Below are positions 312-31,169 of a DNA stretch of 49,522 bases, piece after piece. The DNA is taken from positions 1 through 49,522 of the forward strand of contig JADGEE010000010.1 in the NCBI GenBank assembly GCA_016744535.1. The letters are read 5' to 3'. This DNA is from Campylobacteraceae bacterium (lineage in GTDB: Bacteria; Campylobacterota; Campylobacteria; Campylobacterales; BB28). The stretch's first letter is position 1; each line of letters begins with the position of its first letter. The notes beneath the pieces are model-generated. The model was not told the origin of the DNA, did no database searches, and saw only the letters and a list, made by a program, of their open reading frames with translations. The translations under genes were made by a program, and so were the position numbers.

Positions 312-334
312 TATCTGATGAAATTAATCAGATA
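312..334. repeat. 23-bp palindrome, copy 1
   Basis: Arms TATCTGAT and ATCAGATA around 7 bases. It sits between two + strand genes, 15 bp before the ATG at 350, with the ribosome binding site of that gene between. It is the first of ten copies in the element; function is inferred to be an operator or a ParB-type binding site. Confidence 0.8.
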
Positions 335-349
335 AAAAAGGAGTAAAAG

Positions 350-559
350 ATGTTAAGTAAAAAATTAAAAAATATTTTAGGATTAAATAAAGGAGTTGAA
401 ATAAATAGATACAAAGTATTTTATTTTGATAAAAAAGATAAAATAAAACAAAAATACTTTAGAAATCCAAAAGAAGCATTGAGTTTTTTCAATAAAATAG
501 ATGATAATGATGTGTATTTAGATAGTTTATTGTTAAATAAAAATTTAAAAAGTAAATGA
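350..559 (+). CDS. Small hypothetical protein (69 aa)
   Basis: A lysine-rich protein starting MLSKKLKNILGLNKG. The AAGGAG site at 339-344 supports the ATG. Its N-terminal IlGLNKG segment resembles the start of the unknown protein at 6562-6975 (IIGLNKED), a short likeness that may be chance. No family is recognised. It lies directly behind palindrome copy 1, so it may be controlled through that site. Confidence 0.6.
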   Translation: MLSKKLKNILGLNKGVEINRYKVFYFDKKDKIKQKYFRNPKEALSFFNKIDDNDVYLDSLLLNKNLKSK

Positions 560-569
560 AAGGAAAATA

Positions 570-800
570 ATGAAATTAGTTTGTTTATTATATGAAACTG
601 ATGAATATGGTTCAAAAGATAGTGTAGAAAATAGAGGTATATTTGAAGATATAGAAAAAGCTAAAAAAGCAATAGAAGAGGAGTATGAAGATGAAAAGTT
701 AGAATTAGATTATGAAGCAAATGAAAAAATAATTTATAAAAATAAAGATGGTAATTTAAAAATTGTAATTGAAAAGTTTAGATTAGATTATTTATATTAA
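570..800 (+). CDS. Small acidic hypothetical protein (76 aa)
   Basis: A Glu-rich protein whose first half has a predicted-looking strand (KLVCLLYETDEYG) followed by an acidic helix. A GAAAGGAA site precedes the ATG by a few bases. It follows the 350-559 gene by 10 bp, so the two are probably co-transcribed. No family is recognised. Confidence 0.6.
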   Translation: MKLVCLLYETDEYGSKDSVENRGIFEDIEKAKKAIEEEYEDEKLELDYEANEKIIYKNKDGNLKIVIEKFRLDYLY

Positions 801-815
801 TAAAAAGGAATTGAA

Positions 816-1229
816 ATGGAATTAAATTGGGATACAAAAGAAGTAATAAGTTAGTTTTCAAATGATGAAGATATGTATAATGTAGGTTTAAAAGCAGAAG
901 ATGAAAATGAGATAGAACAAATTTGGAAAGATTTAAATCCAAATAAAGAGGTAGATATTAATAAAGTAGATTGGGAAGAAGTTTTAAAAGATTTACAAGA
1001 AGATGAAGACGAAATTAAAATGGAAACAATAATTGAAAGTATCATCATTGGGCAAAAAATACAAGCATTAAGTCGATTAGATAATAGTAATTTTAATTTT
1101 ATAGATTTAATCAGAGAATTAAAAGGATTAGGAATGATTGATGAAGTAATAATAATGATAAGTGTGCTTGATAGTAAAATAGACTTAGACAAAAAGTTAG
1201 ATGAATATTTTAAAAATGGAGGAAAATAA
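816..1229 (+). pseudogene. Acidic hypothetical gene interrupted by an in-frame TAG
   Basis: The ATG at 816 has a ribosome binding site (AAAAAGGAA, 801-810) and reads MELNWDTKEVIS, then a TAG at 852-854. The same frame stays open to the stop at 1227-1229, giving a 137-codon frame with one internal amber codon. The next ATG (873) has no ribosome binding site, so the longer frame looks like the original gene. Three other element genes end in TAG, so amber is a normal stop here and a nonsense mutation is the simplest reading. The downstream 118-residue part is acidic and helical, without a recognised family. Confidence 0.6.
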
Positions 1230-1231
1230 TA

Positions 1232-1778: not shown

Positions 1779-1801
1779 TATCTGATTAGTTTAGTCAGAT
1801 A
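1779..1801. repeat. 23-bp palindrome, copy 2
   Basis: Arms TATCTGAT and GTCAGATA (one arm base changed). It lies 24 bp before the TTG start of the Com-like gene at 1826. Confidence 0.8.
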
Positions 1802-2185: not shown

Positions 2186-3328
2186 TTAAGAAGCTTGTAA
2201 TTTGTTCTTATCTTTTAATCTATCCGCTAAAGTTCTAACTTTTGGAGTTGATGGAGACTTAGGAACACTAAAAGATGTTACTCTTTTAAATGATTGAATA
2301 TATCCATCTTTATAATAAAATCTAATTTCATCATTACCAATAAGAGCCTTTTTAATAGTCAATCCGCTATCCTCATAATAAATACCGTTTTGGTGTTTTA
2401 TTTGATATTTATTTTCAATTTCTTTCTCTAAATTTTGAAGTTCATTAAATAAATTATTCTCTCTAAGAAAATATAAAAGAGTATTTGAATTTACTAATTT
2501 ATAAGAGTATTTAACAGCACCGCCAAAATTAAAACGCTCATTAACTAAATAAAGTTCATTATCAAGAGTTACGCCAATTTCAATAAAAAAATTATTTGTA
2601 ACTTCGTTAGTGTATTCATTAACTTTACTATTCAAAAGTAATAAATCCCTTTTAGATAAAATATTATCTAACTCACTATCGTCTAAAATATCCTCCCAAT
2701 TACTAGAGACACGATTAGAAACAGATTTTAAATAAGTGTTATACTCATCTTTAGTGATAAACTGCCATTTCATTAAATCCTTATCATATCGCATTATATA
2801 GCCACCAAATGACATAATATAACCACCCTCTAAACTCTCTAACGATAAGTTAAACTTTTGATTTTTAGCACTCAATAAAATATCTCTCGAAGTAAGACCA
2901 AATTTAAAAAGCACTTTTGAAATTTCAACTAAATCATCATAAGAATTTAACTCATTAGATGATAAACCACTTTGAAAAGAACCACTAAAAAAGCTATCAT
3001 CAAAAGATAAATTAGAAATTCTCTCACTATCATTATTTAAAATATTAGCTGATGAACTCTCACTATTTTCAATTAAATCAATTAAATTATTATCTATACT
3101 TTTGTCTCGCTCATTGATGTTATTAAAAAAATAATCATAAGCACTTTTATACGCACCAGTTAAAAAGATTTTTTTTACATCCTCTAAATTAAATTTAACA
3201 TCACTCTCTATATAACCTAACTCTAAAGATTTAGAAACAGCTTTTGAAATTCTATCTATACTTAAACTTTTACCGTTTAAAGAGCCATATTTAACTAAAT
3301 CTTCTATTTTAAAAATTTCTTTACGCAT
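2186..3328 (-). CDS. Hypothetical protein sharing a domain with the ParB-like protein (380 aa)
   Basis: The first ~75 residues (IFKIEDLVKYGSL through KSAYDYFFNN) align by eye with residues ~128-195 of the ParB-like protein at 7586-9562. Both keep a pattern of SL near the front, KA in the middle and IF..a.Y..AYD.F at the end. The middle is Ser/Asn/Asp-rich and probably flexible (residues ~85-130). The rest is mixed, with a basic tail (TPKVRTLADRLKDKNKL). No enzyme motif is seen. It faces the + strand operon and has its own leader at 3329-3454. The shared domain hints at a link to the segregation or regulation machinery. Confidence 0.65.
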   Translation of the reverse strand: MRKEIFKIEDLVKYGSLNGKSLSIDRISKAVSKSLELGYIESDVKFNLEDVKKIFLTGAYKSAYDYFFNNINERDKSIDNNLIDLIENSESSSANILNNDSERISNLSFDDSFFSGSFQSGLSSNELNSYDDLVEISKVLFKFGLTSRDILLSAKNQKFNLSLESLEGGYIMSFGGYIMRYDKDLMKWQFITKDEYNTYLKSVSNRVSSNWEDILDDSELDNILSKRDLLLLNSKVNEYTNEVTNNFFIEIGVTLDNELYLVNERFNFGGAVKYSYKLVNSNTLLYFLRENNLFNELQNLEKEIENKYQIKHQNGIYYEDSGLTIKKALIGNDEIRFYYKDGYIQSFKRVTSFSVPKSPSTPKVRTLADRLKDKNKLQAS

Positions 3329-3424
3329 TTAACTATCCTTATTTTTTTATTTATTTAACAAATTAATAAGGTATAATCCACAATCAAGTTTGTGACTTTT
3401 ATGTGAAAAATACCAAACAATAAA

Positions 3425-3454
3425 GTTATTAAGTAATTACAGTTACTTAGTAAC
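3425..3454 (-). terminator. Stem-loop terminator candidate after the 3455-3976 operon
   Basis: Arms 3425-3436 and 3443-3454 pair over 12 bp with one G-U pair, with a 6-base loop. It starts directly after the stop of the last - strand gene. The following - strand bases are only moderately T-rich, so termination strength is uncertain. Confidence 0.5.
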
Positions 3455-3604
3455 TTAACTTTTTAACCAAATTTTAGCCTCTTCATAAGTTTCAAACCAA
3501 TCACCATAAATATCATCCATTTCAAGATAAAAAGCTTCTAAATTTAAAATATTATCATAAAAGTTACTAAGAATTTCACCATCTTGTAAATAAAAAATTC
3601 TCAT
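3455..3604 (-). CDS. Small acidic hypothetical protein (49 aa)
   Basis: The frame starts MRIFYLQDGEIL and ends EEAKIWLKS. Its ATG overlaps the stop of the gene before it by one base (TAATG), which indicates translational coupling. It is the last of three small genes read from the promoter at 4007-4035 and is followed at once by a stem-loop. No family is recognised. Confidence 0.55.
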   Translation of the reverse strand: MRIFYLQDGEILSNFYDNILNLEAFYLEMDDIYGDWFETYEEAKIWLKS

Positions 3605-3726
3605 TAATGCCCTTTACCATATCTATAAATAACACAAACTTCAATACCTTCTTTTAAACATTTTAAAGCGAAAGCTCTACTATAATAATCCCAACAACCA
3701 TTAATAAAAACTAAATAATTAAACAC
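3604..3726 (-). CDS. Small hypothetical protein (40 aa), GTG start
   Basis: This short frame reads (V/M)FNYLVFINGCWDYYS and ends YRYGKGH. The GTG start lies inside the last codons of the upstream gene (8-base overlap) and the stop overlaps the next ATG by one base. The tight packing in a three-gene set argues that it is real. No family is recognised; two cysteines flank a possible strand-helix unit. Confidence 0.5.
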   Translation of the reverse strand: MFNYLVFINGCWDYYSRAFALKCLKEGIEVCVIYRYGKGH

Positions 3727-3976
3727 CGCAACCCCTTTGCATTAAATTATGAAAGTGATTTTTTTTATCTTCAATAACTTTCAAAACCTTATTAACTATC
3801 ACAACCATAACCGAAATTTTAGCACCTCTTTTAAAAGTTTCTCTAACTATAAACCAAGCTTGTTTAAGTGATATTTTAAATTTATGAACAAGCGTAAAAG
3901 CTAATTTTCTTTTGTTTACTTTACCGTTTATAATGCAACTGCTAACCAAGTTTTTTAAGTCTTTTGATTTAAACAT
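3719..3976 (-). CDS. Basic hypothetical protein (85 aa)
   Basis: A basic, helix-rich protein starting MFKSKDLKNLVSSC, with a hydrophobic stretch at ~55-66 (KISVMVVIVNKVLKVI). The ATG has AAGGAG upstream and a consensus promoter lies 31 bp before it. It heads a three-gene operon. No family is recognised; a DNA-binding or membrane-associated role is possible but unproven. Confidence 0.6.
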   Translation of the reverse strand: MFKSKDLKNLVSSCIINGKVNKRKLAFTLVHKFKISLKQAWFIVRETFKRGAKISVMVVIVNKVLKVIEDKKNHFHNLMQRGCGV

Positions 3977-4242: not shown

Positions 4243-4515
4243 ATGAATAAAATAAAAGATGTTGAAATTGCTCCATTGAGTGAATATGAAATAGGTGCTT
4301 TTAAACAAATGAAAAAAGCACATCTTAAAAGATACAAAATTTTAAAAAATGGAGCATTAGCTGAAAAAGAGAATGTAAATTATGAAGAGTTGTGTGAATT
4401 ACTAGATTTTAGAAATGAGATAAAAAAGAAAAATATCAATTATGAAGATTTACCAAAGATAATTGAGTATTGGGAAATGATGAGAAAAGAGGCTAAAAAG
4501 TTTATGAATAATTAA
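4243..4515 (+). CDS. Small hypothetical protein (90 aa)
   Basis: A charged, helical protein starting MNKIKDVEIAPLSEYE. It has AAAAAAGGAA before the ATG. Its 3' end overlaps the end of the convergent YwqK-like gene by 4 bases. Two similar phrases (NYEELCELLDF and NYEDLPKIIEY, about 24 residues apart) suggest an internal repeat. No family is recognised. Confidence 0.6.
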   Translation: MNKIKDVEIAPLSEYEIGAFKQMKKAHLKRYKILKNGALAEKENVNYEELCELLDFRNEIKKKNINYEDLPKIIEYWEMMRKEAKKFMNN

Positions 4516-5492
4516 TTTTTATCATAAATTTTAATACCTATTTTATGAAATTCACCATCTTTAAAATTTTCAGTTTTAAATACATAATCTTTTGAATTTA
4601 ATTTAACAATTTTATCATCTATTATAAAAGTATTCTTTGAAATATATTGAGCCATCTTATATTTAAATTTAGGCTCTTTTATCAAAGGAAATTTTTTTAT
4701 AATAGATTTAATGTTAGCAACTTTTTTATATTCAAGCTGACTAAATATTTTAGCTTTAGCTTTATCACTAATAGTAAAAAATAATAATTTATTAGTGTTT
4801 TTATAGCTTAAAAATTCACTATAAACGGTTAATAAAGTTTTATTAGTATCATAATGAATATTTAGAATTTTATCATCTCTAATCAATTTAGATACATTTA
4901 CAAGTAACTTATAATCATATCGAATAGAAGGATATTTTTTATATGAAAGTTCAGATTTATTGTCAATAGAAGTTAAACTATTAGAATTAGAATAATATTT
5001 AGTTTCTATTTCATAATCGTTTTCCTCATAATCTTTATATATAATTTTATCCTCATAAAGTAAACTAATACCATCTTTTAGATAATGCCTAACAAAATAA
5101 GGAAGATTGTTTTTATATTCAGTTTCACTAAATAATGTACCATTTTCTCTATAACTCTTTGAAAAAATCTCATAACCATTTTTATAAATACTTTCACTAT
5201 TTAAAACACCATTCTTATGATAGGATTTATAAGATACTCTTTTACCACCTTTATAAATATATTCTCTTCTTAAATCACCATTTTTATAATACTCATAAGA
5301 AGATAAAGTAATATCATCCTTATAATACTCAATAGTTTTCAATTCGCCACTTTTATAATAATGAGCTCTATAAATCTTATTTTTATTTTCAAAAACAACT
5401 TCAACTTTAATACCACTATAATATCGTATTTCAGAAGTAAATTTGCCATAAACAAAATTAAAAAATAAAATAAAAATAAAAAAATATCTCAT
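4512..5492 (-). CDS. Exported MORN/YwqK-like repeat protein (326 aa)
   Basis: A signal peptide (MRYFFIFILFFNFVYG) is followed at about residues 40-150 by four or five ~20-residue repeats of the form YYKNGxLxxexxYKnG, typical of MORN_2/YwqK-type proteins. The C-terminal half is less regular and of unknown fold. Proteins of this type are often named YwqK family antitoxins, but here the signal peptide places it outside the cytoplasm, so an antitoxin role is doubtful. It is 17 bp behind the 5510-6043 gene and probably co-transcribed. In a mobile element it is best viewed as cargo. Confidence 0.75.
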   Translation of the reverse strand: MRYFFIFILFFNFVYGKFTSEIRYYSGIKVEVVFENKNKIYRAHYYKSGELKTIEYYKDDITLSSYEYYKNGDLRREYIYKGGKRVSYKSYHKNGVLNSESIYKNGYEIFSKSYRENGTLFSETEYKNNLPYFVRHYLKDGISLLYEDKIIYKDYEENDYEIETKYYSNSNSLTSIDNKSELSYKKYPSIRYDYKLLVNVSKLIRDDKILNIHYDTNKTLLTVYSEFLSYKNTNKLLFFTISDKAKAKIFSQLEYKKVANIKSIIKKFPLIKEPKFKYKMAQYISKNTFIIDDKIVKLNSKDYVFKTENFKDGEFHKIGIKIYDKN

Positions 5493-5509
5493 AAAAAACC
5501 TTTATTAAA

Positions 5510-6043
5510 TTATCTATCACAACTTTCTAATTTCTCTTTAGCATTTCTAATAACTTCAATATCATTACCATCTTTTACTAACTCTTCTAATGCTTTTCTA
5601 GGAATTTCATAATTTTTAGAAAGAGTTAATTTAACAGAATTATGAGGACATTTAGCTAATTCAACACTAACAATCTGTCTATTTTTATCGTGTAATTTTT
5701 CAACATAATTAGCAATGACATCTAAATTATCAACTGATGAAAATTTAATTAAATGCTTAATAATATCAATATCTATATATGTGATATATTCAGTATTATT
5801 AAGTAAAACAGAAACTACATTTGAATTACACTCTTTAAAAATATGAATAACAATATCTTTAGGTAAATCAGAATAATTAGCAACATTTTTTTGTATTACT
5901 TCATCTTCATTAAGTAACTCAAAATAAACTTCTTTCAAACCTTTAACATCTTTTGAATATTCAGGAAGATTAGAAGATATAACCTCTAATAACGAATGAT
6001 TAATATTGAATAAACTTTTATCATTAACACTTAATTGAAACAT
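5510..6043 (-). CDS. Alpha-helical repeat protein (177 aa)
   Basis: Repeating units of ~22 residues (e.g. NYSDLPKDIVIHIFKECNSN) resemble leucine-rich-variant or HEAT-like helical repeats, a protein-binding fold. The frame is open up to a TTG at 6073, but the ATG at 6043 has AAAAGGA at the right distance, so it is taken as the start. It is followed by the MORN-repeat gene; the pair may act together. No precise family is recognised. Confidence 0.6.
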   Translation of the reverse strand: MFQLSVNDKSLFNINHSLLEVISSNLPEYSKDVKGLKEVYFELLNEDEVIQKNVANYSDLPKDIVIHIFKECNSNVVSVLLNNTEYITYIDIDIIKHLIKFSSVDNLDVIANYVEKLHDKNRQIVSVELAKCPHNSVKLTLSKNYEIPRKALEELVKDGNDIEVIRNAKEKLESCDR

Positions 6044-6181
6044 AGATAAATCCTTTTTAATTGAATCTAACAAAAATTAAATTAAAATCACAAAGAAAGT
6101 CTTAAATAAGTATGAAAAAATATTTAAGTGTGTAAAATTTAAACATATTTTAAAATTGTGATTTTTTAGTGAAATTTAAAC

Positions 6182-6204
6182 TATCTGATTAAATTTGTCA
6201 GATA
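6182..6204. repeat. 23-bp palindrome, copy 3
   Basis: Arms TATCTGAT and GTCAGATA. It lies between the - strand gene pair and the next + strand genes, 45 bp before a small ATG frame at 6250. Confidence 0.8.
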
Positions 6205-6561: not shown

Positions 6562-6975
6562 TTGAATATAAAAGGAATTATAGGATTAAATAAAGAGGAT
6601 ATTGAAAAAATAGAAAAAATGATAAACAAAAAAGTTCCATTTAGCTTTTATAAAGAAAAAGTAAATGAAAAAGGAAGTTTTAAATACTATTTAGATTTCA
6701 AAGGAATAAATGAAAAAATTAAGTTAGTAGATAATTTGGAAGCACTTTTTAGTGAACTTACTTTAAATTACTATTGGAGAAAAAAGCCTTATAAATATTT
6801 CTATATAGAAATTGAAAATGGAATTGTAAAAAAACTTGAATCAATAGTTGAATTTAAAGATAAATGGAAAAATAATATTCTAACATTCAGAGGTAAAAAG
6901 ACAAATTTAAATTTACCAAAAATAGAAGAGATATTTTTCATAACAAATGATAGAGTAAGAAGTTATAAATGGTAA
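6562..6975 (+). CDS. Hypothetical protein (137 aa), TTG start
   Basis: Starts NIKGIIGLNKEDIEKIEK and ends NDRVRSYKW. Two TTG codons are possible (6556 and 6562); the second is 6 bases from AAGGG at 6551-6555 and is preferred. The sequence mixes helices and strands. The next gene starts within its last codons, so they are coupled. No family is recognised. Confidence 0.55.
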   Translation: MNIKGIIGLNKEDIEKIEKMINKKVPFSFYKEKVNEKGSFKYYLDFKGINEKIKLVDNLEALFSELTLNYYWRKKPYKYFYIEIENGIVKKLESIVEFKDKWKNNILTFRGKKTNLNLPKIEEIFFITNDRVRSYKW

Positions 6976-7172
6976 AAAAAATAATCATCAAAATACCAAA
7001 ATTAGATGAATTAAAGTCAATAAATATAGAACATAATCGACTAAGTGAAGATGAAGAGATTTATTTAATAAATCATAAAAGTTTATCAAAAATAAGGGAT
7101 AAATCAAATCAAAAAAAGTTAATAAAGGATATGAGAAATGTAAAAATAGCAGTAACTATCAAAGATTTGTAA
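6969..7172 (+). CDS. Small basic hypothetical protein (67 aa)
   Basis: A lysine-rich protein (starts MVKKIIIKIPKLDEL) whose ATG overlaps the end of the gene before by 7 bases, which indicates translational coupling. Palindrome copy 4 begins 9 bp after its stop. No family is recognised. Confidence 0.55.
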   Translation: MVKKIIIKIPKLDELKSINIEHNRLSEDEEIYLINHKSLSKIRDKSNQKKLIKDMRNVKIAVTIKDL

Positions 7173-7181
7173 TTAAAAATA

Positions 7182-7204
7182 TATCTGATTAATTTAGTCA
7201 GATA
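7182..7204. repeat. 23-bp palindrome, copy 4
   Basis: Arms TATCTGAT and GTCAGATA, 22 bp before the TTG start at 7227, which leads into the large ParB-like gene. This places a putative ParB-type site directly upstream of the parB-like operon. Confidence 0.8.
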
Positions 7205-7585: not shown

Positions 7586-9562
7586 ATGAAAATAGTAAAA
7601 ATGAGAAAAATACACGAGTTTGAAAAAACAAATTTAGTAACTACTCCCAAAGGTGATAAATATAAATGTAAAAAATGTGGAATTGAAGGTTGGAGAGAGG
7701 GTTTAACAGATGATATAAAAATAACAAAAGGAACAGAAAAGTTAATTAATGAGTGTAAAGGATATGTATTTAAAAGCATAAAAATAAAATTAACTAAAGT
7801 TTTACCAATTAAAGAAAAAACAGAAATAGGGCAAATATTTAATACAATTGAACCTAGTGATAAAAAGTTTTTAAACAAAGAGGGTGTATGTATAAAAATA
7901 GTTAAAGAAGAAGTTAGAGTATTAGATAAAGAATACGAAGAAATCAAAGAAGAGAAAAAACAGATAAAACTATATAGTGTAGTAGAATTAGCGGATTTAG
8001 GTGCAATAGGTAATGCCTCATTAAATTTAGGAAAAATTGAAAAAGCAATTGTAGAACTTCAAACAGAGTTAAAAGGTAAAGGAGAAATTAGTAGTTTCAC
8101 AAAAGATGAAGCTAAAATAATTTTTGAAAAAGCTGGGTATGAAAAAGCTTATGATAGATTTAGAAAAAAAGCTGGATATGAAAAAGTTTATGATAATTTT
8201 ATTAAAAAAGCTGAAAAAGAAAAACCAATAAAGTTAGTTGAAGATAAAACAGAGTGGGAAATACATAATAAATTATTAGATGAAAACTCATTAATGTCTA
8301 TTTTAAGTAAAACAGAAGCTAACAAATTATTTGAGCAAGGTTTTATAATATTTGCAACATCAAAAGATGTAAGATTTAAACATAAAAATGAAATGTTAGA
8401 ATGTTTAGAAAAATTTGATGAAAAAATTAATTTTGATGAAAATTATAAATATTTTGAACAATCAATATCAGCAATTGGAAAAATAGATTTATATTATTCA
8501 AAAGAAAAAGTTTATAATTCAAAACCTAATGATATATCTATACTTGAAATAACTAATATTACAATAGATGAAAATTTACAAAATAGAGTTCAAAAAACAG
8601 ATTTACAAGTAGTTGAACAATACAAAGAGAGTTTAAATCAAAATGATAAATTTCCTCCAATAGTTGTATTTAAAATAGATGAAGAAATTAAGTTAGTAGA
8701 CGGATTTCATAGATATAGAGCATATAAAGAGTTAGGTATAACAAGAGTAGAAGTTAAAATAATTGAGGGTAATTATAGAGAAGCTACACTATATAGTTTA
8801 ACAGAAGCTAACAGTAAACACGGCGTAAGAAAAAGTACAGAAGATATAATCGAAACTATCAAAAAATTACTTAATGATGAAGAGTGGAAAGATTGGAGTG
8901 AAAGAGAGATAGCTAGAAGAGTCGTAACTACTACTTACATGGTTCAAAAAGTAAAAAAGATGATTGAATTTATAGAGCCTGATGTTGTAAAAGCTAATAG
9001 AAATGGTAAAGTTATTGAGCAGAAAAGAGAAAAAAAGCCAAAAAGTGAAAAACCAATAGATGAACCTAGCTTACCATTTGAAGAGATTCAAAAAGAAAAA
9101 ACAGAAAATAATGATGAAACAAAAGATGAAATTGAAAATCCACCATTACCATTTGAAGAGCCTCAAAATGAAAATAAAAATGATAATTTAGAAGAGCAAT
9201 ATAAAGAGATGGATTTAGAAGTTGAGTTAGAAAAACTTAAACCTAAAATTAAAGGAATAATGAAATATAACTATGAAAAAATATATGGAAAAACAAAAGC
9301 AAATTCAATTGAAATAGAAAATGGATTTTTAATTGCAAAAAAAGGTAATGAAATTATTGAAACAAAATCATTACTAGAGTTAGAAAAAGATATTGAAAAT
9401 AAACTCATAATTGAAATGTCTAAAAATGATTTATTAAAAATTGAATATATGGATAAAAAATGGTATATAGAATTTTTAAAAGAAAATATACTACATATAG
9501 CAACTAAAGAGAAAACTAAATTAGAGGCATTAATCACTATATTAAAAAAATATGAATTTTGA
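7586..9562 (+). CDS. Large ParB-like protein with zinc ribbon (658 aa)
   Basis: The ParB/Spo0J N-terminal-like core is at residues ~350-410 and contains LVDGFHRYRAYKELG (the equivalent of the GERR-type CTP-binding motif, here GFHR at 373-376) and ANSKHG. A helix-turn-helix follows at ~440-460 (SEREIARRVVTTTYMVQ). In front are a zinc-ribbon-like CKKC (28-31) and, at ~128-195, a domain shared with the 380-aa protein at 2186-3328. Residues ~182-207 are a 13-residue tandem duplication. A long acidic linker holds two copies of LPFEE, and the tail is a separate small domain. At more than twice normal ParB length it is unusual. ParB or KorB proteins bind palindromic sites for segregation or repression; the ten 23-bp palindromes are candidate sites. 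No ParA-type ATPase is adjacent. Confidence 0.8.
   Translation: MKIVKMRKIHEFEKTNLVTTPKGDKYKCKKCGIEGWREGLTDDIKITKGTEKLINECKGYVFKSIKIKLTKVLPIKEKTEIGQIFNTIEPSDKKFLNKEGVCIKIVKEEVRVLDKEYEEIKEEKKQIKLYSVVELADLGAIGNASLNLGKIEKAIVELQTELKGKGEISSFTKDEAKIIFEKAGYEKAYDRFRKKAGYEKVYDNFIKKAEKEKPIKLVEDKTEWEIHNKLLDENSLMSILSKTEANKLFEQGFIIFATSKDVRFKHKNEMLECLEKFDEKINFDENYKYFEQSISAIGKIDLYYSKEKVYNSKPNDISILEITNITIDENLQNRVQKTDLQVVEQYKESLNQNDKFPPIVVFKIDEEIKLVDGFHRYRAYKELGITRVEVKIIEGNYREATLYSLTEANSKHGVRKSTEDIIETIKKLLNDEEWKDWSEREIARRVVTTTYMVQKVKKMIEFIEPDVVKANRNGKVIEQKREKKPKSEKPIDEPSLPFEEIQKEKTENNDETKDEIENPPLPFEEPQNENKNDNLEEQYKEMDLEVELEKLKPKIKGIMKYNYEKIYGKTKANSIEIENGFLIAKKGNEIIETKSLLELEKDIENKLIIEMSKNDLLKIEYMDKKWYIEFLKENILHIATKEKTKLEALITILKKYEF
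8129..8206 (+). repeat. 39-bp in-frame tandem duplication in the ParB-like gene
   Basis: Two consecutive 39-bp units encode KAGYEKAYDRFRK and KAGYEKVYDNFIK. They keep the frame and duplicate the last helix of the domain shared with the 380-aa protein. Confidence 0.75.
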
Positions 9563-10014: not shown

Positions 10015-10030
10015 AATAAAAAGAGGTCTT

Positions 10031-11634: not shown

Positions 11635-11657
11635 TATCTGATTAAATTTATCAGATG
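11635..11657. repeat. 23-bp palindrome, copy 5
   Basis: Arms TATCTGAT and ATCAGATG. It lies 38 bp before the ATG of the frameshifted gene that is coupled to the helicase. Confidence 0.8.
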
Positions 11658-15910: not shown

Positions 15911-15933
15911 TATCTGAATAAATTTATCAGATA
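15911..15933. repeat. 23-bp palindrome, copy 6
   Basis: Arms TATCTGAA and ATCAGATA. It lies on the leader of the - strand gene starting at 15871 and directly beside a second hairpin at 15931-15960. Confidence 0.8.
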
Positions 15934-17409: not shown

Positions 17410-17432
17410 CATCTGATTAAATTTATCAGATA
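17410..17432. repeat. 23-bp palindrome, copy 7
   Basis: Arms CATCTGAT and ATCAGATA. It lies between two convergent genes and contains the stop codon of the - strand gene (17426-17428). It is the only copy not directly before a gene start. Confidence 0.8.
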
Positions 17433-21502: not shown

Positions 21503-21578
21503 TTTGAACCTTTTGAATTAAATAATCGAGACTAAAAAATAAAAAAGAAACTATTAAAAGATAAAATATAAAATCCAT
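21495..21578 (-). CDS. 27-aa single-span membrane peptide
   Basis: Reads MDFIFYLLIVSFLFFSLDYL then IQKVQNG, one membrane span with a short tail. Its ATG overlaps the stop of the 565-aa gene by one base and its stop overlaps the start region of the 142-aa gene by 8 bases. Such tight nesting in a gap otherwise free of genes supports it. It could be a small membrane or virion peptide. It is too short for most gene finders. Confidence 0.5.
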   Translation of the reverse strand: MDFIFYLLIVSFLFFSLDYLIQKVQNG

Positions 21579-23275: not shown

Positions 23276-23285
23276 ATTAAAAACC

Positions 23286-23308
23286 TATCTGATTAATTTA
23301 TTCAGATG
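23286..23308. repeat. 23-bp palindrome, copy 8
   Basis: Arms TATCTGAT and TTCAGATG. It contains the stop of the 72-aa module gene (23298-23300) and lies 10 bp before the start of the 565-aa gene at 23275. Confidence 0.8.
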
Positions 23309-24145: not shown

Positions 24146-24339
24146 TAATTACTCTTAGGTTTAAAATCACTACTTAAAGATTTAGCAATAAATTCAACTG
24201 CAAAAGCAATTCTATCTAAAGCAATTTGTTGCTTATCGCTAGATTCTTTTGTAGAAGTAGATATATCATTTAATTTAGAAGAAATATCACTTATATCATC
24301 TGACATATTTTTTAAAATATTTTCACAAGTATCAGCCAT
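24145..24339 (-). CDS. Small helical protein (64 aa)
   Basis: A short alpha-helical protein with heptad-like residues (starts MADTCENILKNMSDDISDIS, ends SLSSDFKPKSN). It overlaps the gene before by 8 bases and the gene after by 1 base. It may be a connector or chaperone; no family is recognised. Confidence 0.55.
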   Translation of the reverse strand: MADTCENILKNMSDDISDISSKLNDISTSTKESSDKQQIALDRIAFAVEFIAKSLSSDFKPKSN

Positions 24340-25024
24340 TATTAAACCTTATTAATTCATTTTCAGGAACATATAAAACACTATTTCCTTTTTGAACTTC
24401 ATAAAAAACATTATAGCTACCATATCCTAAAAAAACTCTAAATGAATAATTTATAATATATTTAGTATCATAATCAGATATATTAACTAATTCACCATCT
24501 AAATATAAGCAACCATTACCATTAAGACTTGTTATATGCTCACTTTTATAATCATTAGCATTCAGAGTAAAAACTTTATTTTGAAGTATATTTATAGCTT
24601 GATTTGTGTTTTCTACTAATTGCCTAAAAGAGTTATTAACTGTCGATACATAAAATTTAATATTTATAAAACCATCAAAATTAGATATAGATATAATTAA
24701 ATCTTCATGATGATAAATAGAGTTATGAATATCTATTAAATCATTTAAAGTAAAAGAGTTTTCAGATAAATTTATTTTAAATTTAGTCAAATAAAAATCA
24801 ACTTCACTATCTTTTATAGATATAAAAAATGAATCAAAATTATCTATATCTAAAATAGAAACTTCAAAGTTTTGAGTAAAAGAAAATTTAGCATAATCTT
24901 TTTTTTCATTTAAAATTATCTTTTGTAATGGATAATCTTCATTAGAAAAATGAAATTTTTTACCTTCAACAATAGATAAATAAAATGGTAATTCATCCGA
25001 ACCACGAGTAAGAAAATATTGCAT
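24332..25024 (-). CDS. Protein with C-terminal 'SLNGNG' module (230 aa)
   Basis: The last ~65 residues (SLNGNGCLYLDGELVN, then VFYEVQKGNSVLYVPENELI) match the free-standing 72-aa module and the end of the 251-aa protein. The first ~160 residues are strand-rich, with SLYH-type Phe/Asn-rich runs (SFTQNFEVSILDIDNFDSFF). The N-terminal part and the 251-aa protein also look similar in layout. A fibre or tail-tip role is inferred. Confidence 0.6.
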   Translation of the reverse strand: MQYFLTRGSDELPFYLSIVEGKKFHFSNEDYPLQKIILNEKKDYAKFSFTQNFEVSILDIDNFDSFFISIKDSEVDFYLTKFKINLSENSFTLNDLIDIHNSIYHHEDLIISISNFDGFINIKFYVSTVNNSFRQLVENTNQAINILQNKVFTLNANDYKSEHITSLNGNGCLYLDGELVNISDYDTKYIINYSFRVFLGYGSYNVFYEVQKGNSVLYVPENELIRFNNG

Positions 25025-25033
25025 AAAAAACTC

Positions 25034-25486
25034 CTATTTTAAAAAAGTATCAATAATAAATATAGTATTATTTTTATTATCAATAAATTGATATATAAAA
25101 CCAAACAGACCACCACCTTTATAATATCTCTTTTTTTTACCAGTAAATTTAAAATCTATATCATTTATTTTAAGAGTATAGTTTTTATCAATTTGAGTAA
25201 AGTTTTCATCATAAATATTAATATATTTAAAATAAAGCTTATGGTCAATATCATAACTAGATAGGCAATATTTAAAAGATTGAACAAAATAGTTAAATTT
25301 GTTGATTTTATAGTTAAAATTAAAATTGAAAGAGTTAAATTCAATAGAGATAGAATAGTTAAAATTTAAAGCATTTAAATTTAGAAAGTCTTCAATAGTA
25401 TATTCAAAAGAGTGATTAAAATATGGAGTTGTAATAAAATAGGGACTATATCCATAAAGTTCATAATTAAATTCAAAACTAAACAT
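25034..25486 (-). CDS. Phe/Asn/Tyr strand-repeat protein (150 aa)
   Basis: The first ~75 residues are irregular repeats around F-x-F-N-Y (MFSFEFNYELYGYSPYF, NFNYSISIEF, FNFNFNYKINKFNYF). The end (DIDFKFTGKKKRYYKGGG, then FIYQFIDNKNNTIFIID) may be another small SH3-like module. The start MFSFEFNYELYGYSP parallels MLNLQFNYTLSGYSLNG in the 485-aa protein. A beta-fibre structure is inferred; no family is recognised. Confidence 0.6.
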   Translation of the reverse strand: MFSFEFNYELYGYSPYFITTPYFNHSFEYTIEDFLNLNALNFNYSISIEFNSFNFNFNYKINKFNYFVQSFKYCLSSYDIDHKLYFKYINIYDENFTQIDKNYTLKINDIDFKFTGKKKRYYKGGGLFGFIYQFIDNKNNTIFIIDTFLK

Positions 25487-25900
25487 TTATAACTCCAAAC
25501 AATATTGAGTTCTAAGATTATTACATTGAGATACTAAATCATCTAAAGAGTAAGTTGAAGCGTAAGCTTTATCAGAAAAAGATAAACAGACATATTTATC
25601 ACTAATTTCAACATCATAACTAAAATTTGTTAATATATTTCCTAAAGCAAAAAGAGAATTAAATATTTCAATATCAAAATAAATAAAGAAACTTTTAGGG
25701 CAAGAAAAGTCTAATATATTTATAGATATGGTTTTATTTATATAATCAAATTTAAACTCTAAATAATCAAAAGTTTTATCATTAAAACAAGATGTTTTAA
25801 GTACATAATTTAAATTCTTATTTATACTAAATTTTTGACTATTATTATCACCAATACCAAAATGCCAAAAAAGTTCATCTCTATTTACATAAAAATTCAT
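25487..25900 (-). CDS. Hypothetical structural-module protein (137 aa)
   Basis: Starts MNFYVNRDELFWHFGIGDNN; rich in Phe, Tyr, Asn and Lys with strand periodicity, and ends with a short helix (LDDLVSQCNNLRTQYCLEL). It overlaps the gene before by 4 bases and ends 1 base before the start of the next. It resembles the N-terminal half of the 230- and 251-aa proteins in composition. No family is recognised. Confidence 0.55.
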   Translation of the reverse strand: MNFYVNRDELFWHFGIGDNNSQKFSINKNLNYVLKTSCFNDKTFDYLEFKFDYINKTISINILDFSCPKSFFIYFDIEIFNSLFALGNILTNFSYDVEISDKYVCLSFSDKAYASTYSLDDLVSQCNNLRTQYCLEL

Positions 25901-27354
25901 TTATTAATGACTCTTTCAATAGCAAATAGATATCTGTTATTGCCTCTATGTAGCTGATAAACTAAGTAATATTTAGATTTAGCAAATAGGATAAAAAGTA
26001 TATTTACAACAGTAAATTTAATTGGAAAACCGATAACTTTAACACTATCACCAATATTAAATTTTGGAACAATTCCGTGATATGGATTTTTATTATAAAG
26101 AGAGATTTTAGATAAACGATTGATTGTAACTTTTTTAAGAAGAGATTTTAAATAATCTAATTTAGTTTCAACTATTAAATAACTTTTATCATCACTCATA
26201 GTATAAAACTTATTAGCACCAATAAAAAGATTACCATTATTAAAAAAATACTTAACATAAATATCATCAAATTTATAAAATTGATTTTCAAATTCAGATA
26301 GAGAAATGCCATTAATAAATATATTTTCAAAAGAGATATTAGCATTTAAATAGAATTTATTTATAAAAAATTTAATTGCAGATTTAAAATGTTTGAGTTC
26401 TATATATAATTTATTTTCTCTAATAGAAATAGAGAAGCTATCAATAATAAGACCAAGTTCATTTATAGTTTTTTTAGTATATTTAGAATCAATAAAAAAG
26501 TTATTTAATTTAAGAGATGAGCCAAAAAAAGATATTTCATAATCATAATAAAATTTATCATTTATAGAGAGTACATAACTAAAAAAACAATCAAATTCAA
26601 GAGGTGCAGTTCTAATTAATTCATAAGTAAAGCTATTATTAAAGTTATAATAAAAATCTTTAGAATAATTAAATTTAAAATTGAAATCAACAAAAGTATA
26701 TAAGTAATCATAATTAAATTGAAAGTTAAAATTAAAAATATTATTTGAAATATCATAATTAAATTCTTTATTGAAACAGATAGATTTTTCTATTTTATAA
26801 TCAAATTGAAAATTAAAACTATTAATAAAAATTGGATAGTTACAATAAGCTTTAAATTTAGAGTAAGGATTACCTTCACGAGCAGAAACAACAAAATAAG
26901 GAAATTCAAAAGAATTAATATTATTAAATTCAATATCATCATATATAGAAATTAAATTCCTATAAGTTGTGCAATTATTAGGATATGGCACATAAGGAAA
27001 AGCTGATTTGACTTCATAAGCAGGTATAGAGACATCGGTTCTAAAAAATTCAAGTGGTTCACAAATAGAATTTAAATAAGTAAAAAAAATACGATTAACT
27101 GTATTGAAAACTATTTTAATATCAGTAAATCCAATAGTTGGTTTAAACAATAAACCACTTCCACCAACCCAAGCGTATTTACCATTACCTCGTTTTACAT
27201 CTAAAACTACATATCCATCACTATCTATATAACTACTACCATTTGCATTTCTAGTTACAATATCTGATTCTTTGAGTTGATACCAACCATTAAGAGAGTA
27301 ACCGCTTAGTGTGTAGTTGAATTGTAAGTTAAGCATTGAAAATAACAATTTCAT
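25897..27354 (-). CDS. Large Phe/Asn/Tyr strand-repeat protein (485 aa)
   Basis: From ~residue 180 to 290 irregular 13-17 residue repeats of the FNFxFNY type follow one another (FNFQFDYKIEKSI, FNKEFNYDISNN, FNFNFQFNYDYLYT, FVDFNFKFNYS). The end (FNIGDSVKVIGFPIKF, YYLVYQLHRGNNRYLFAIE) looks like a small beta-barrel. Two starts are possible: ATG at 27354, or ATG at 27336, which gives MLNLQFNYTLSGYS and parallels the 150-aa protein; neither has a clear ribosome binding site, and both overlap the gene before. Fibre or adhesin role inferred. Confidence 0.6.
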   Translation of the reverse strand: MKLLFSMLNLQFNYTLSGYSLNGWYQLKESDIVTRNANGSSYIDSDGYVVLDVKRGNGKYAWVGGSGLLFKPTIGFTDIKIVFNTVNRIFFTYLNSICEPLEFFRTDVSIPAYEVKSAFPYVPYPNNCTTYRNLISIYDDIEFNNINSFEFPYFVVSAREGNPYSKFKAYCNYPIFINSFNFQFDYKIEKSICFNKEFNYDISNNIFNFNFQFNYDYLYTFVDFNFKFNYSKDFYYNFNNSFTYELIRTAPLEFDCFFSYVLSINDKFYYDYEISFFGSSLKLNNFFIDSKYTKKTINELGLIIDSFSISIRENKLYIELKHFKSAIKFFINKFYLNANISFENIFINGISLSEFENQFYKFDDIYVKYFFNNGNLFIGANKFYTMSDDKSYLIVETKLDYLKSLLKKVTINRLSKISLYNKNPYHGIVPKFNIGDSVKVIGFPIKFTVVNILFILFAKSKYYLVYQLHRGNNRYLFAIERVINK

Positions 27355-27952
27355 ACATAGTAACTAATACTTTATAAGTATAAGAACCTATTTTTTCAAT
27401 ATCTTGAACAAGATAATAATTACTAGGAACAGAAAAATAAAATGAACAACTAACACCACTATCAAGATGACGAGGGTCTTCATATCTTGTACACTCACGA
27501 CTTTCAATATCTTTAAAAGAAAGAGAAAAAACAAGTGTCTCTTTACCATTAATAGGATTAACAGAATAAATTTTAATAAAATATGATGAATAATAATCAG
27601 GAATATTATTTGAAAATGTTGAGAAAAACCAGCCACCATTAACATATTCAGAAGCAGGACGAGCGTGAATTGCTTCCACATTAGTATCAGTATAAAAATC
27701 ATAATCATTACTAATATATCTATATCTAAAATATTCAAAAGTTTCACTAACAAGAGTAGGACAACCAAAACAATATTTAAAAATTCCAATATATTTTTTA
27801 ATAGATTTAATTTTTATATTTCTAGGAACAGAAGTAGCAATTACTTCACCAAAACACATATAACCTTTATCACCACACTTTAAACACTTACCTCTACCTT
27901 GTTTATCAATAACAAATTTACCACCACTATTTATACACTCTTGTTTAGTCAT
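27329..27952 (-). CDS. Cys-containing hypothetical structural-module protein (207 aa)
   Basis: The N-terminus has CINSGGKFVIDKQGRGKC followed by LKCGDKGYMCFG, which could bind zinc or form disulphides, and more cysteines occur at KYCFGCP. The rest is strand-rich with Tyr/Phe/Ser. The ATG lies 9 bases before the stop codon of the 251-aa gene, after palindrome copy 9. No family is recognised. Confidence 0.55.
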   Translation of the reverse strand: MTKQECINSGGKFVIDKQGRGKCLKCGDKGYMCFGEVIATSVPRNIKIKSIKKYIGIFKYCFGCPTLVSETFEYFRYRYISNDYDFYTDTNVEAIHARPASEYVNGGWFFSTFSNNIPDYYSSYFIKIYSVNPINGKETLVFSLSFKDIESRECTRYEDPRHLDSGVSCSFYFSVPSNYYLVQDIEKIGSYTYKVLVTMYEIVIFNA

Positions 27953-27961
27953 AAGAAAACC

Positions 27962-28717
27962 CTAATCTATCTGACTAAATTTATCAGATAGAAAATGTTC
28001 AGGTAAATGTATAATTTGATTACCTTTTCTAAGTCCATATATGACATTAGAAAAATCATTACCAAATATACTAAAAAAACTATATATAACTTCCCAATTA
28101 TCACCATGTTTATCAACATTAACAAAAACACCATCACTATATTTACAACCATTGCCATTAAGACTAATTGGATAAATTATATTGCCTTCACCTTGATTAC
28201 TTATAGTTAAAGTTTTAGAGTTATAATCAAATTTAAATATTATATTTCTACCATTAGAATTATAAACCCAACTCTTTGGATTAAAATTATAAAAAGGTAA
28301 AAATGATATAGCTTTAAGAGGTGTTGAGCCACTTAAATTAGATAAATCAAAATCCTCATAAAATATAAAATCAACTGATTTAATATTATCTTCAAATCTA
28401 AATTTTAAATTAAATACTTTTAAACTATAAATATATTGAACTAAATTAAATAAAGAAAAAAAGTAAAAAGAGATAGATTGTTTATCCTTATCAAAATAGA
28501 AATAAAAAAATTTATTATTATTTTCTATTGTATCAGATAGAGCATAAGAACCAAACGGAAATAATTCATCATTAAAATTTGGATGAGTTTCTGCATTAGT
28601 AAAATTATCAAATGGAGTAGCTGAATTATCATCATTATAATTAGCAACTTCTTTATATTCAAATAATTTATTTAATTCGTGATATTGAGTTAAAAACTTT
28701 TTACTATAAATAGACAT
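27962..28717 (-). CDS. Protein with C-terminal 'SLNGNG' module (251 aa)
   Basis: The last ~65 residues (SLNGNGCKYSDGVFVN, then VIYGLRKGNQIIHLPEHFL) match the modules at 23298-23516 and 24332-25024. The first ~180 residues are strand-rich (FYFYFDKDKQSISFYFFSLF). The final codons and TAG stop run through palindrome copy 9. It overlaps the start of the 302-aa gene's end by 14 bases. Fibre/tail-tip role inferred. Confidence 0.6.
   Translation of the reverse strand: MSIYSKKFLTQYHELNKLFEYKEVANYNDDNSATPFDNFTNAETHPNFNDELFPFGSYALSDTIENNNKFFYFYFDKDKQSISFYFFSLFNLVQYIYSLKVFNLKFRFEDNIKSVDFIFYEDFDLSNLSGSTPLKAISFLPFYNFNPKSWVYNSNGRNIIFKFDYNSKTLTISNQGEGNIIYPISLNGNGCKYSDGVFVNVDKHGDNWEVIYSFFSIFGNDFSNVIYGLRKGNQIIHLPEHFLSDKFSQID
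27968..27990. repeat. 23-bp palindrome, copy 9
   Basis: Arms TATCTGAC and ATCAGATA. It codes for the last residues (SDKFSQI) of the 251-aa protein and lies 15 bp before the start at 27952, so it is both coding and a leader element. Confidence 0.8.
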
Positions 28718-29612
28718 CTATCATATCCTCCAAAACTGAAATATGTTTACCATCACTTTTTTGAACTATAAAAACTTTTTTATACGTTTTTTCATCACTC
28801 ATGGTGTTAAGTAAAAATTTAATTATGCACTCACCTTTAATACCTTTAACTAAAACTTTGCTATTTACTAGATTAGAAAAGTCATAATTTACAAATTCAT
28901 TTAATTCACTAAAATCATATTGTTTATAACCAATTGGCTTAGGTAAATCTAAAATATGTGAATAGTGTTTATAAAAATGATTTTTAAGTCTTATAAATAA
29001 GTATTGATAATATAGATAAATCTTATCATTAAGTATAGTATTATCAATAGAGTTATTTTCATCAACATCTAAAAAAGGATGAATTTCAGAGTAAAAATCA
29101 ACACCAATCGAGGATAAATGGTCTTTAAATCTATCTGCAATAATATCTAATCTATGTTTATAAAAAAGAGACATCTTTATAATATCAGAAAACATTGGTT
29201 TATATTTATATTTAAGAGATAAAAAAGAGATGTTTGGATTAGGTAAATTATAAGCATAAGAAAGATTAAAAATAGTATGAGATTTATAAAAATTCTTATA
29301 CTTATAATTTAAATCAAAAAACTCAAATTTATCAAGATTAATAAAATACTCATATTTTAAATTAAAAGTATCAATATTAAGATTAGAGTTTTCATAAGAG
29401 TAATGCAATAAAGATGTTGAAATTTCAGTTGATGAATTTGAGTAAGAGTATTTTAAATCAAACAGAGATATGTTAGATATATTTGATTTATATTTATAAG
29501 GTAAAGATAATAAATTTATATTAGAATTATTGTTTAAAATATTATATTTTAAATCAAATAGAGAAATATCTCTGTTTGAAGAAAGATATTTATAAGATAG
29601 TAAATAAACCAA
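28704..29612 (-). CDS. 16-residue tandem-repeat protein (302 aa)
   Basis: Residues ~16-153 form an unbroken run of nearly nine 16-residue units with I/F at position 1, L at 6 and Y at 8 and often 10 (ISLFDLKYNILNNNSN, INLLSLPYKYKSNISN, ISLFDLKYSYSNSSTE), preceded by a partial unit at ~1-15. No unit gains or loses a residue. The C-terminus (VLVKGIKGECIIKF, VFIVQKSDGKHISVLEDM) resembles a small barrel module. A beta-solenoid or stacked-strand fibre is the natural reading. It lies 1 bp after the 260-aa gene. No family is recognised. Confidence 0.65.
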   Translation of the reverse strand: MVYLLSYKYLSSNRDISLFDLKYNILNNNSNINLLSLPYKYKSNISNISLFDLKYSYSNSSTEISTSLLHYSYENSNLNIDTFNLKYEYFINLDKFEFFDLNYKYKNFYKSHTIFNLSYAYNLPNPNISFLSLKYKYKPMFSDIIKMSLFYKHRLDIIADRFKDHLSSIGVDFYSEIHPFLDVDENNSIDNTILNDKIYLYYQYLFIRLKNHFYKHYSHILDLPKPIGYKQYDFSELNEFVNYDFSNLVNSKVLVKGIKGECIIKFLLNTMSDEKTYKKVFIVQKSDGKHISVLEDMIDVYL

Positions 29613-29613
29613 C

Positions 29614-30396
29614 TTAATTACCTAAATGATTCCAAGCACCAAGCACAAAAGAGTTAGTTTCAATACCATCTAATGAGATATAAGATTCAAGTTTATGTTC
29701 AACCCAAATAGAAAAATAATCATTAGGTGCTAAAGAGCCGAAGGTGTAAATTTTTGAAACAAGGGCGTTAGAAAGAATTGATATTGCAGATGAAGTAAGA
29801 GTAATAGGAACATCATAACTAATAACTGCATCTGCATCATAACCATCTTTGTAAATTTTAAGACCATCAGAATTAAAAGAAAATTTAAAAGACATAGTAT
29901 CCATATCTATAACACCAAATTCACCCTTATAAAAATCAATTTCATTTAATAGTTCCGAATGAATTTGAGAATTAAGAGTAGAAGGAGAAGCATTATAAAA
30001 TTCTATTTGATACCTAGAATTTTTATGAACACCTTTTGTAAAAGCACCAAAAGCATTTGAAGCTAAAAAAGTTTCATCACTAAATAGAGATGTTTTAGAA
30101 ATTGCAGGATAAAAAAGATGTCTCTCTCTAGGATTGTTTTCACTAACTTTAAATTGAGTAACTTTTAAATTTTGAATAGTTTCAGTTCCTTCGTTTCTAA
30201 GATGAATTTTATACCATCTTTTGCCACCAAACTCACTTAAATGAGTAGATACATCAGGCAGTCCATTATCAGGACTTGAAATATCAATAGGCGAATTTAA
30301 ATCTATATCACCACCTTTAAAATAAAAATCACCATTTTCACTATCTTCTAAATAAGTAATATCTTTACTATTGTAAAATTTTAAATTTAATGCCAT
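29614..30396 (-). CDS. Paralogous putative virion protein A1 (260 aa)
   Basis: Aligns with the neighbour at 30424-31131: LKFYNSKD start, a GGDID motif, GGKRWYKIHLRNEGTETIQN (the neighbour has GGSRYYKFFVKNENNTDTA), FYPAISKTS, and an end with LAPNDYFSIWVEHKL (the neighbour LAPETYSGFWFKHTI). The family of two resembles phage tail or baseplate-type immunoglobulin-like proteins in composition, but no domain is certain. It is the second gene of the long - strand operon. Confidence 0.65.
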   Translation of the reverse strand: MALNLKFYNSKDITYLEDSENGDFYFKGGDIDLNSPIDISSPDNGLPDVSTHLSEFGGKRWYKIHLRNEGTETIQNLKVTQFKVSENNPRERHLFYPAISKTSLFSDETFLASNAFGAFTKGVHKNSRYQIEFYNASPSTLNSQIHSELLNEIDFYKGEFGVIDMDTMSFKFSFNSDGLKIYKDGYDADAVISYDVPITLTSSAISILSNALVSKIYTFGSLAPNDYFSIWVEHKLESYISLDGIETNSFVLGAWNHLGN

Positions 30397-30423
30397 TAAT
30401 TACTCCTAAATATATTTATATTA

Positions 30424-31131
30424 TTAAACTTTATCAAAAAATCCACCAATATTAAAAGTATCATTTGAAACATATCTAGCAAAAGGCATAATAGTATGCT
30501 TAAACCAAAAACCCGAATAAGTTTCAGGTGCTAAATCTCCAATCTCTAAAGTTCCACTAACATTAGTGTTTGTTAAATCTACATATTCAGGTAAATCTTC
30601 AACTACAATTAAATCAAATTCATTAAAACTATCAACATTTGAAATATTTGCAACACTTGAAACAGTTAAAGTAACAACTTTAGATAAAGTAGTTTTATCA
30701 AAAAAAGTTATTTCATATCCACTTTTAAATATTTCAATTGGATTAGATTTAGTTTTTAATTTAACTGTTTTCGTACTTCTATTAAAAATAGTTATAGTTT
30801 CAGCAATACCACATATTTGAGAGTTAGTAAAATTCTCATCTACAAGTTTTGAAGTATTTGAACTAGCTTTAATAATTTCTACATACTCCATTCCTTGAGG
30901 TGCTTTTTGTAAAATTAAATTTAAAGCTAATGCAGTATCAGTATTGTTTTCATTTTTAACAAAAAATTTATAATATCTACTTCCACCACTTTCAGCTAAA
31001 GAACTTGTAACATTTTTAATATCTGTATTTATAGATAATCTATCTATATCACCACCGTTATTAGTTCCGTCACCATCAATTTCTTTATTAATAGAAACAT
31101 AAAACTTTAAATCACTATCAGCAATAGCCAT
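30424..31131 (-). CDS. Paralogous putative virion protein A2 (235 aa)
   Basis: This is the first gene of the ~8-kb - strand operon. It is a paralogue of the 260-aa protein, with DLKFYVSINKEIDGD, GGDIDRLSIN, ESGGSRYYKFFVKN and LAPETYSGFWFKHTIMPFA. Palindrome copy 10 ends its leader 15 bp upstream. Tandem duplication followed by divergence is evident. A virion component is inferred from the operon. Confidence 0.65.
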   Translation of the reverse strand: MAIADSDLKFYVSINKEIDGDGTNNGGDIDRLSINTDIKNVTSSLAESGGSRYYKFFVKNENNTDTALALNLILQKAPQGMEYVEIIKASSNTSKLVDENFTNSQICGIAETITIFNRSTKTVKLKTKSNPIEIFKSGYEITFFDKTTLSKVVTLTVSSVANISNVDSFNEFDLIVVEDLPEYVDLTNTNVSGTLEIGDLAPETYSGFWFKHTIMPFARYVSNDTFNIGGFFDKV

Positions 31132-31146
31132 AAGAAAACCCTTATT

Positions 31147-31169
31147 TATCTGATTAAATTAGTCAGATA
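31147..31169. repeat. 23-bp palindrome, copy 10
   Basis: Arms TATCTGAT and GTCAGATA. It lies 15 bp before the first gene of the structural operon (31131, - strand), between it and the divergent second parB-like gene. A run of eight T follows on the + strand. Confidence 0.8.

Follow-up and report, generated by a model that had tools for sequence, protein, structure and literature searches.

A prophage-specific set of twelve palindromes at gene junctions in a Campylobacteraceae bacterium: a putative operator set

Dispersed prophage operators are already established. In the Bacillus prophage SPbeta the prophage-encoded master repressor MrpR (YopR), which has a recombinase fold, binds SPBRE sites in about ten promoter regions, SPBRE being a 15-bp motif (PMC10516654). 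The repressor of mycobacteriophage L5 binds stoperators that lie within promoter regions or in short gaps between genes, where it is thought to halt initiation and elongation; these sites are 13 bp long, asymmetric, oriented with transcription and bound by a monomer (PMC9283540, PMC6550527). On plasmid RK2 the operators of KorB, a CTP-binding global repressor of the ParB family, precede promoters at distances that range from 4-10 bp to over 1 kb (PMC11790492), and N15, a linear plasmid prophage, has four compact inverted repeat (IR) sites (IR1-4) together with SopA/SopB (PMC7205306). Here we describe a set of palindromes in a prophage of a Campylobacteraceae bacterium, most of which lies on contig JADGEE010000010.1 (49,522 nucleotides; this whole stretch is called the window from here on). 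The palindromes probably form the control network of the prophage, and this site set, together with its reader, would be new.

The palindromes and the prophage that carries them

A sequence-only reading of the window had listed ten 23-bp palindromes, starting at 312, 1779, 6182, 7182, 11635, 15911, 17410, 23286, 27968 and 31147. A motif scan recovered all ten with 0-2 mismatches to TATCTGAT-N7-ATCAGATA, while dinucleotide shuffles of the window contained 1.08 matches on average and none of the 100 shuffles reached ten. When all gapped 6-mer palindromes of the prophage were counted without bias, ATCTGA-N9-TCAGAT was the commonest (11 copies), and the runner-up, once the sub-frames of this pattern were set aside, had 4. 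Two additional copies were found on another contig of the genome, C123, at 10480-10502 (copy 11, 23 bp) and at 9384-9405 (copy 12, 22 bp, its spacer being 1 bp shorter), which makes 12 copies within the prophage. Across the whole 3.02-Mb genome ATCTGA-N8/9-TCAGAT occurs in 12 places, 12/12 of them inside the prophage, so that the many chromosomal copies named beforehand as a sign against an element-borne system were not seen. Allowing any spacer from N6 to N12 added two N7 matches, on contigs C104 and C122, and the reversed-motif control over the same genome and spacers gave zero matches. Regarding degenerate sites, no one-mismatch variant of the 12-bp core with a spacer of 5-14 was found in the prophage, barring a spurious offset read of copy 4. 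The palindrome set is exact and apparently complete. The claim that the palindromes are specific to the element therefore holds genome-wide for N8 and N9 spacers, although they are not confined to the window.

Each site consists of two inverted half-sites, (N)TCAGAT(R), flanking an A/T-rich spacer. The core ATCTGA/TCAGAT is identical in 24/24 half-sites, in the N8 copy just as in the eleven with N9, and variation is seen at positions 1/23 and 8/16, on one side. The sites are dyad-symmetric, as every copy has one perfect half and the one-sided deviations occur on either side. The 7-bp spacers have G or C at 2/77 positions, which is below expectation even for 15% G+C (P 4e-4).

The window is the entire contig C138 of this genome and holds most of the prophage, whereas the left end of the prophage is on C123; window positions 1..18 are identical to the final 18 bases of C123 (11396-11413). 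An 18-bp repeat, CTTAACATAAAATTAACA, stands on C123 at 7929-7946, just past the integrase stop, and in the window at 32289-32306, between the last gene of the element and a host TonB receptor gene. We take the latter copy as the presumed right attachment site (attR) and right end of the prophage, although further 18-bp matches between the two contigs arise by chance, and this interpretation leans on the position of the repeat as much as on its length. Both parts are presumed to form one prophage of ~35.8 kb with its right end at ~32306 and host genes beyond; no palindrome occurs to the right of 31.2 kb, as had been noticed before. The G+C content is 23.5% in the prophage (25% in its C123 part) versus 27% in the flanks.

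The C123 part encodes a tyrosine integrase, a small xis-like protein, a Rep_1 rolling-circle initiator and a protein with an acidic tail resembling single-stranded DNA-binding (SSB) proteins; the window adds a Rep3 initiator, a UvrD-type helicase, a tail-collar protein and an endolysin-like peptidase. Among the proteins scanned, none was recognised as a terminase, portal or capsid protein. This one integrated element thus has two replication systems, Rep3 (10031-10978) and Rep_1 (C123 9407-10471), and directly upstream of the Rep3-type plasmid initiator there are four 22-bp direct repeats at 9928-10015 (AATAGCACCSTTTACAATACCA-like iterons). At 14184-17101 three paralogous structural proteins, namely the collar protein and the products of 15957-16676 and 16697-17101, have a common N-terminal domain of ~120 amino acids. 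The last 77 bases of the window (49446-49522) equal an internal stretch of C123 (2358-2434), probably because the assembled contigs overlap at a repeat.

Position of the sites relative to genes and promoters

The sites follow the borders of the genes. A start codon lies 8-39 bp downstream in 10/12 cases, and on the other side 10/12 sites either overlap a reading-frame end or follow a stop codon by at most 23 bp, where random placement would give ~8% for start proximity and ~8% for stop proximity. The proximity to starts is still in excess among placements that are not wholly coding (P 0.002). Because the sites track starts and stops, the palindromes are gene-junction elements and not centromere-like ones. 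They are present in the rightward left arm, in the leftward structural operon (at its head and at four internal places) and in the leftward C123 operon (Rep_1/xis-like/int), where they occupy both joints following the first gene and none precedes the first gene. Directly ahead of the units that run counter to their neighbours, 2186-3976, 4512-6073, 17236 and 18177, there is no site.

In the left arm, copy 1 (312..334), which has perfect arms, lies 3 bp past the stop of open reading frame (ORF) 162-308, and ORF 350-559 starts 15 bp on. Copy 2 (1779..1801) is also 3 bp past a stop, that of 1509-1775, and 24 bp upstream of a zinc-ribbon-like ORF, 1826-1957, with a TTG start. Copy 4 (7182..7204) follows the stop of 6969-7172 by 9 bp and precedes by 22 bp the gene starting at 7227, in the operon of a ParB-like protein of 658 amino acids. 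Copy 5 (11635..11657) is 4 bp past the stop of 11382-11630 and 38 bp upstream of ORF 11696, in the helicase block; this ORF (11696-11997) is open for 29 codons only and a longer frame resumes in another frame past a run of nine A, which makes a frameshift or an assembly error likely. Copy 3 (6182..6204) is situated between the divergent gene 6073(-) and the rightward block, with a 10-codon frame 46 bp downstream and ORF 6318 113 bp downstream. It had been claimed that nine of the ten copies in the window precede a start codon; since copy 3 precedes only this tiny frame, the count is eight of ten when plausible genes are considered (10-39 bp).

In the structural region, copy 6 (15911..15933) stands between the leftward genes 15957-16676 and 15209-15871, 39 bp upstream of the start of the latter. 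Copy 8 (23286..23308), with two deviations, overlaps the 3' end of 23298-23516 (-) and is 10 bp upstream of 21578-23275 (-), whereas copy 9 (27968..27990) falls within the final codons of 27962-28717 (-), 15 bp upstream of 27329-27952 (-). Copy 10 (31147..31169) is 15 bp upstream of 30424-31131, with which the leftward structural operon begins, and 126 bp from the start of the gene of a second ParB-like protein, 31296 (+). Copy 7 (17410..17432) is different: it lies 3 bp past the stop of an Arc-like ORF, 17236-17406 (+), and covers the stop of the leftward ORF 17426-18127, and no gene start is nearby. Both the exception made for copy 7 and the overlap of copies 7, 8 and 9 with reading-frame ends had been described correctly from the letters of the window.

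Regarding promoters, no excess of sigma-70-like sequences was found at the sites (mean score 8.17 vs 8.01 at random places), a result that suits control of elongation. Two other arrangements of the prophage can be mentioned here. At 4035-4007 (-), directly ahead of the counter-running operon 3976-2186 (whose first gene encodes 85 amino acids with no family match), there is a perfect TTGACA-N17-TATAAT, a possible lysogeny promoter which on its own is not clearly above chance in AT-rich sequence. Besides, two 69-bp blocks, 17146-17214 and 19224-19292, are 80% alike, contain TATAAT-like boxes and are upstream of the leftward structural genes 17101 and 19195; they may represent a second class of promoters in this element.

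Candidate readers and explanations of the set

The explanation towards which we lean is that a single DNA-binding regulator, encoded by the prophage, uses all twelve palindromes as its operators. In the lysogen this regulator would most likely bind each site as paired subunits, and once bound it would stop transcription from entering the following gene or gene block, with the outcome that on both arms the genes of the lytic programme, of replication and of excision would be silenced together. Since sites are found inside operons, at gene joints and without promoter excess, at least some of them may act, as stoperators do, as roadblocks on transcription that has already started, and their symmetry would permit blocking from both sides. 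We infer here that the sites are bound as DNA by a protein, that this protein is a repressor encoded by the prophage and that it works at least partly as a roadblock within operons. The sequence-only reading had also viewed the palindromes as dispersed sites to which a protein of the element binds, and this is well supported because the sites are specific to the element, invariant in their core and placed at gene junctions; however, nothing that was tested links the ParB-like proteins, which it had named as readers, to the palindromes.

One candidate reader is the Arc-like ORF 17236-17406 (+), which would encode a ribbon-helix-helix-like (RHH-like) protein of 56 amino acids. The place of copy 7, beside its stop and where leftward late transcription would enter it, is suggestive and hints at this ORF as the reader. 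A search of Pfam with it gave no match, and a fold search with its monomer model returned no RHH structure among the matches; RHH strands pair only in the dimer, and a model of the monomer settles little. The other candidates are the two ParB-like proteins, encoded by 31296..32159 (+), 287 amino acids with a ParB fold and a helix-turn-helix (HTH), and by 7586..9562 (+), 658 amino acids with a segment of the same type at residues ~316-490. Both draw ParB-like PHROG matches, their ParB-fold and HTH segments are 43% identical over 127 amino acids, and the model of the 287-aa protein, of low confidence (predicted local distance difference test, pLDDT, 68), matches the structures of ParB, Noc and KorB across ~190 columns. 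By sequence and model, therefore, the name given to them from the letters holds as far as the fold goes, and they are real ParB-fold proteins. However, at the position of the phosphate-binding motif, GERRxR in partition ParBs and GARRYR in KorB (PMC11790492), they read DGFHRLK and DGFHRYR. Because of this replacement they look more like members of the ParB/Srx side family (StrR-, SbnI-type). Among solved structures the sequence matches of the ParB-fold segments are sulfiredoxin and SbnI, from the non-partition side of the superfamily and all weak, and homologues of these segments in phage and plasmid records carry the annotation of streptomycin-biosynthesis (StrR-type) regulators. A repeat in the promoter region of the 287-aa gene, ATATCATATATT x2, was discarded because a rough shuffle test showed no excess over chance.

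Judged from these sequence matches and positions, the Arc-like ORF is our tentative choice as reader and at least as good a candidate as the ParB-fold proteins; some other protein seems about equally plausible, and that one of the two ParB-fold proteins reads the sites is only slightly less so.

Several observations weigh against the operator set as described. The spacer of one copy (C123 9384-9405) is shorter by 1 bp, which a rigid dimer would tolerate poorly. Some early units are free of sites, namely Rep3 and the divergent region ahead of ORF 162 and of the SSB-like gene. The promoter comparison relied on a sigma-70-like consensus that may not be that of the host and is weak in so AT-rich a sequence. 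As to the Arc-like ORF, its two best PHROG matches are Arc-like repressors at E values of only 0.012 and 0.015, and its single-sequence monomer model is a helical hairpin in which the N-terminal strand is absent. Finally, a relative with such sites was not found in the collections searched, so that co-variation of the sites and their reader could not be shown.

Among the alternatives, one is actually a special case of the operator set that names its reader: a ParB-fold protein would bind the palindromes as a global repressor or co-regulator in the manner of KorB, possibly spreading from the sites. The element encodes two proteins with a ParB fold and HTH, the 287-aa model resembles KorB among others, copy 4 stands just ahead of the operon of the 658-aa gene and copy 10 ahead of the 287-aa gene, and KorB does silence plasmid genes via dispersed operators (PMC11790492). 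We nevertheless consider it unlikely, with DGFHR in the place of GERRxR/GARRYR, with no ParA found on either prophage contig, with sites split by an A/T-rich spacer, unlike the compact ParB-site palindromes checked (N15 IR), with sulfiredoxin and SbnI as the nearest solved relatives by sequence, and with a model of low confidence for the 287-aa protein. A step further, and more unlikely still, a ParA-less protein of the ParB superfamily without the canonical nucleotide motif (StrR/SbnI-like) would be the master silencer of the prophage, reading the joint sites and blocking both directions; it would then be the ParB-family counterpart of the stoperators, in a phage lineage without a characterised member. 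The centromere part of the earlier proposal, in which the palindromes would be dispersed parS sites as in N15, is not supported and seems very unlikely; such sites would serve to maintain the element, once excised, in the manner of a plasmid. The Rep3 initiator with its iterons and the ParB-fold proteins hint at a plasmid-like phase, but a search with AAA_31 (PF13614) gave ten matches in the genome, all on other contigs, and hence no ParA-type ATPase on C138 or C123; moreover, the element has a tyrosine integrase and att-like repeats, and its twelve sites follow gene starts and stops, as against the four compact IR sites with SopA/SopB of N15 (PMC7205306).

Two further explanations keep the gene junctions and change the mechanism. 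A lytic activator, either the StrR-like ParB protein or another, could switch on the genes behind the palindromes, or these could be phage-specific promoters. The distance of 8-39 bp to the gene starts and the StrR-type annotation of the ParB-segment homologues would fit, yet promoter excess is not found near the sites, and in six cases the gap to the start codon is just 8-15 bp, which leaves no room for a downstream -10 element and a start site; we regard this explanation as improbable. Slightly less probable is that the palindromes act at the RNA level, forming 8-bp stem-loops at the intercistronic joints of the mRNA that would serve as translational operators or processing sites. Such hairpins would suit the layout of stop, palindrome and start and would tolerate a change of 1 bp in the loop, and at 8/12 sites folding is better for the sense RNA than for the antisense; but this excess of 8 versus 4 is not significant (sign test ~0.19 one-sided), sense folding is clearly worse than antisense at 23286, 31147 and C123 10480, the core is fixed with zero compensatory changes, and copy 7 has no gene start behind it. 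This is a possible reading, weaker than the operator set.

Regarding relatives, the palindrome pattern was searched in 84,980 genome species and in IMG/VR, and no repeated set was found, only single chance matches. Neither the ParB-like proteins nor Rep_1 had relatives in ~300 genomes of the order, and scans of viral contigs with both ParB-like proteins, Rep_1 and a structural alignment revealed no relatives of the element; there was one distant ParB-like match in viral contigs (L053), where repeated palindromes are absent. The helicase gene is common to other genomes of the order, and the surrounding regions fetched there are otherwise unlike the element. In a genome of the same genus (G001), ~12 kb of contig C106 (~18041-29950, L066/L067) is a distant relative of the prophage. 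Common parts are the integrase (29% identical), the collar and several small structural proteins; it contains no recognised capsid or terminase and none of the palindromes, and XRE/CI-like genes are nearby. Because this relative has structural genes but no sites, the palindromes and their control system were probably acquired together, or lost together, within this lineage. An empty attachment site could not be demonstrated in G001, where the gene order differs.

Comparison with known systems

If the operator set is true, this is a further prophage silenced via many dispersed sites rather than one switch region, in an unstudied AT-rich lineage of host and phage, and symmetric sites could block transcription coming from either side. 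The exact site set should also make it straightforward to identify the reader, through gel shift or DNA pull-down, and the outcome would show the role of ParA-less "ParB-like" phage proteins or their non-involvement.

As on RK2 with KorB and its operator OB, dispersed palindromic operators would be found on a mobile element with a ParB-fold protein, here a candidate reader; however, the ParB-fold proteins have no GARRYR-type motif and ParA is missing, and to our knowledge no KorB OB has a long spacer. N15 is similar in that its prophage, too, contains several inverted repeats apart from one another and encodes a ParB-type protein (again a candidate reader here), but our element has twelve sites, is integrated, and ParA was not found in it. 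Of the parABS components, a ParB-fold protein with HTH is encoded, and no cognate ParA was found. Filing the palindromes as KorB/OB or as parS is therefore not supported by the tests made. StrR, an activator of an antibiotic cluster, controls several operons by way of inverted repeats whose spacer is wide. Regulators of this type also combine a ParB domain with an HTH, but their half-sites and spacer differ from those described here, and the proteins are alike only in a core of 140 amino acids with ~25-37% identity.

The resemblance to SPBRE/MrpR of SPbeta lies in a short motif that recurs many times, only within the prophage and ahead of genes, although the motif described here is palindromic, 22-23 bp long and placed at tight stop/start joints, with no excess of promoters. 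With the stoperators of L5 and the Cluster A phages, the prophage has in common many sites in short intergenic spaces, but its sites are symmetric, longer and twelve in number, and the asymmetry that defines stoperators in the strict sense is not present. Comparing all these systems, in function the palindromes would be most like SPBRE/MrpR and the L5 stoperators.

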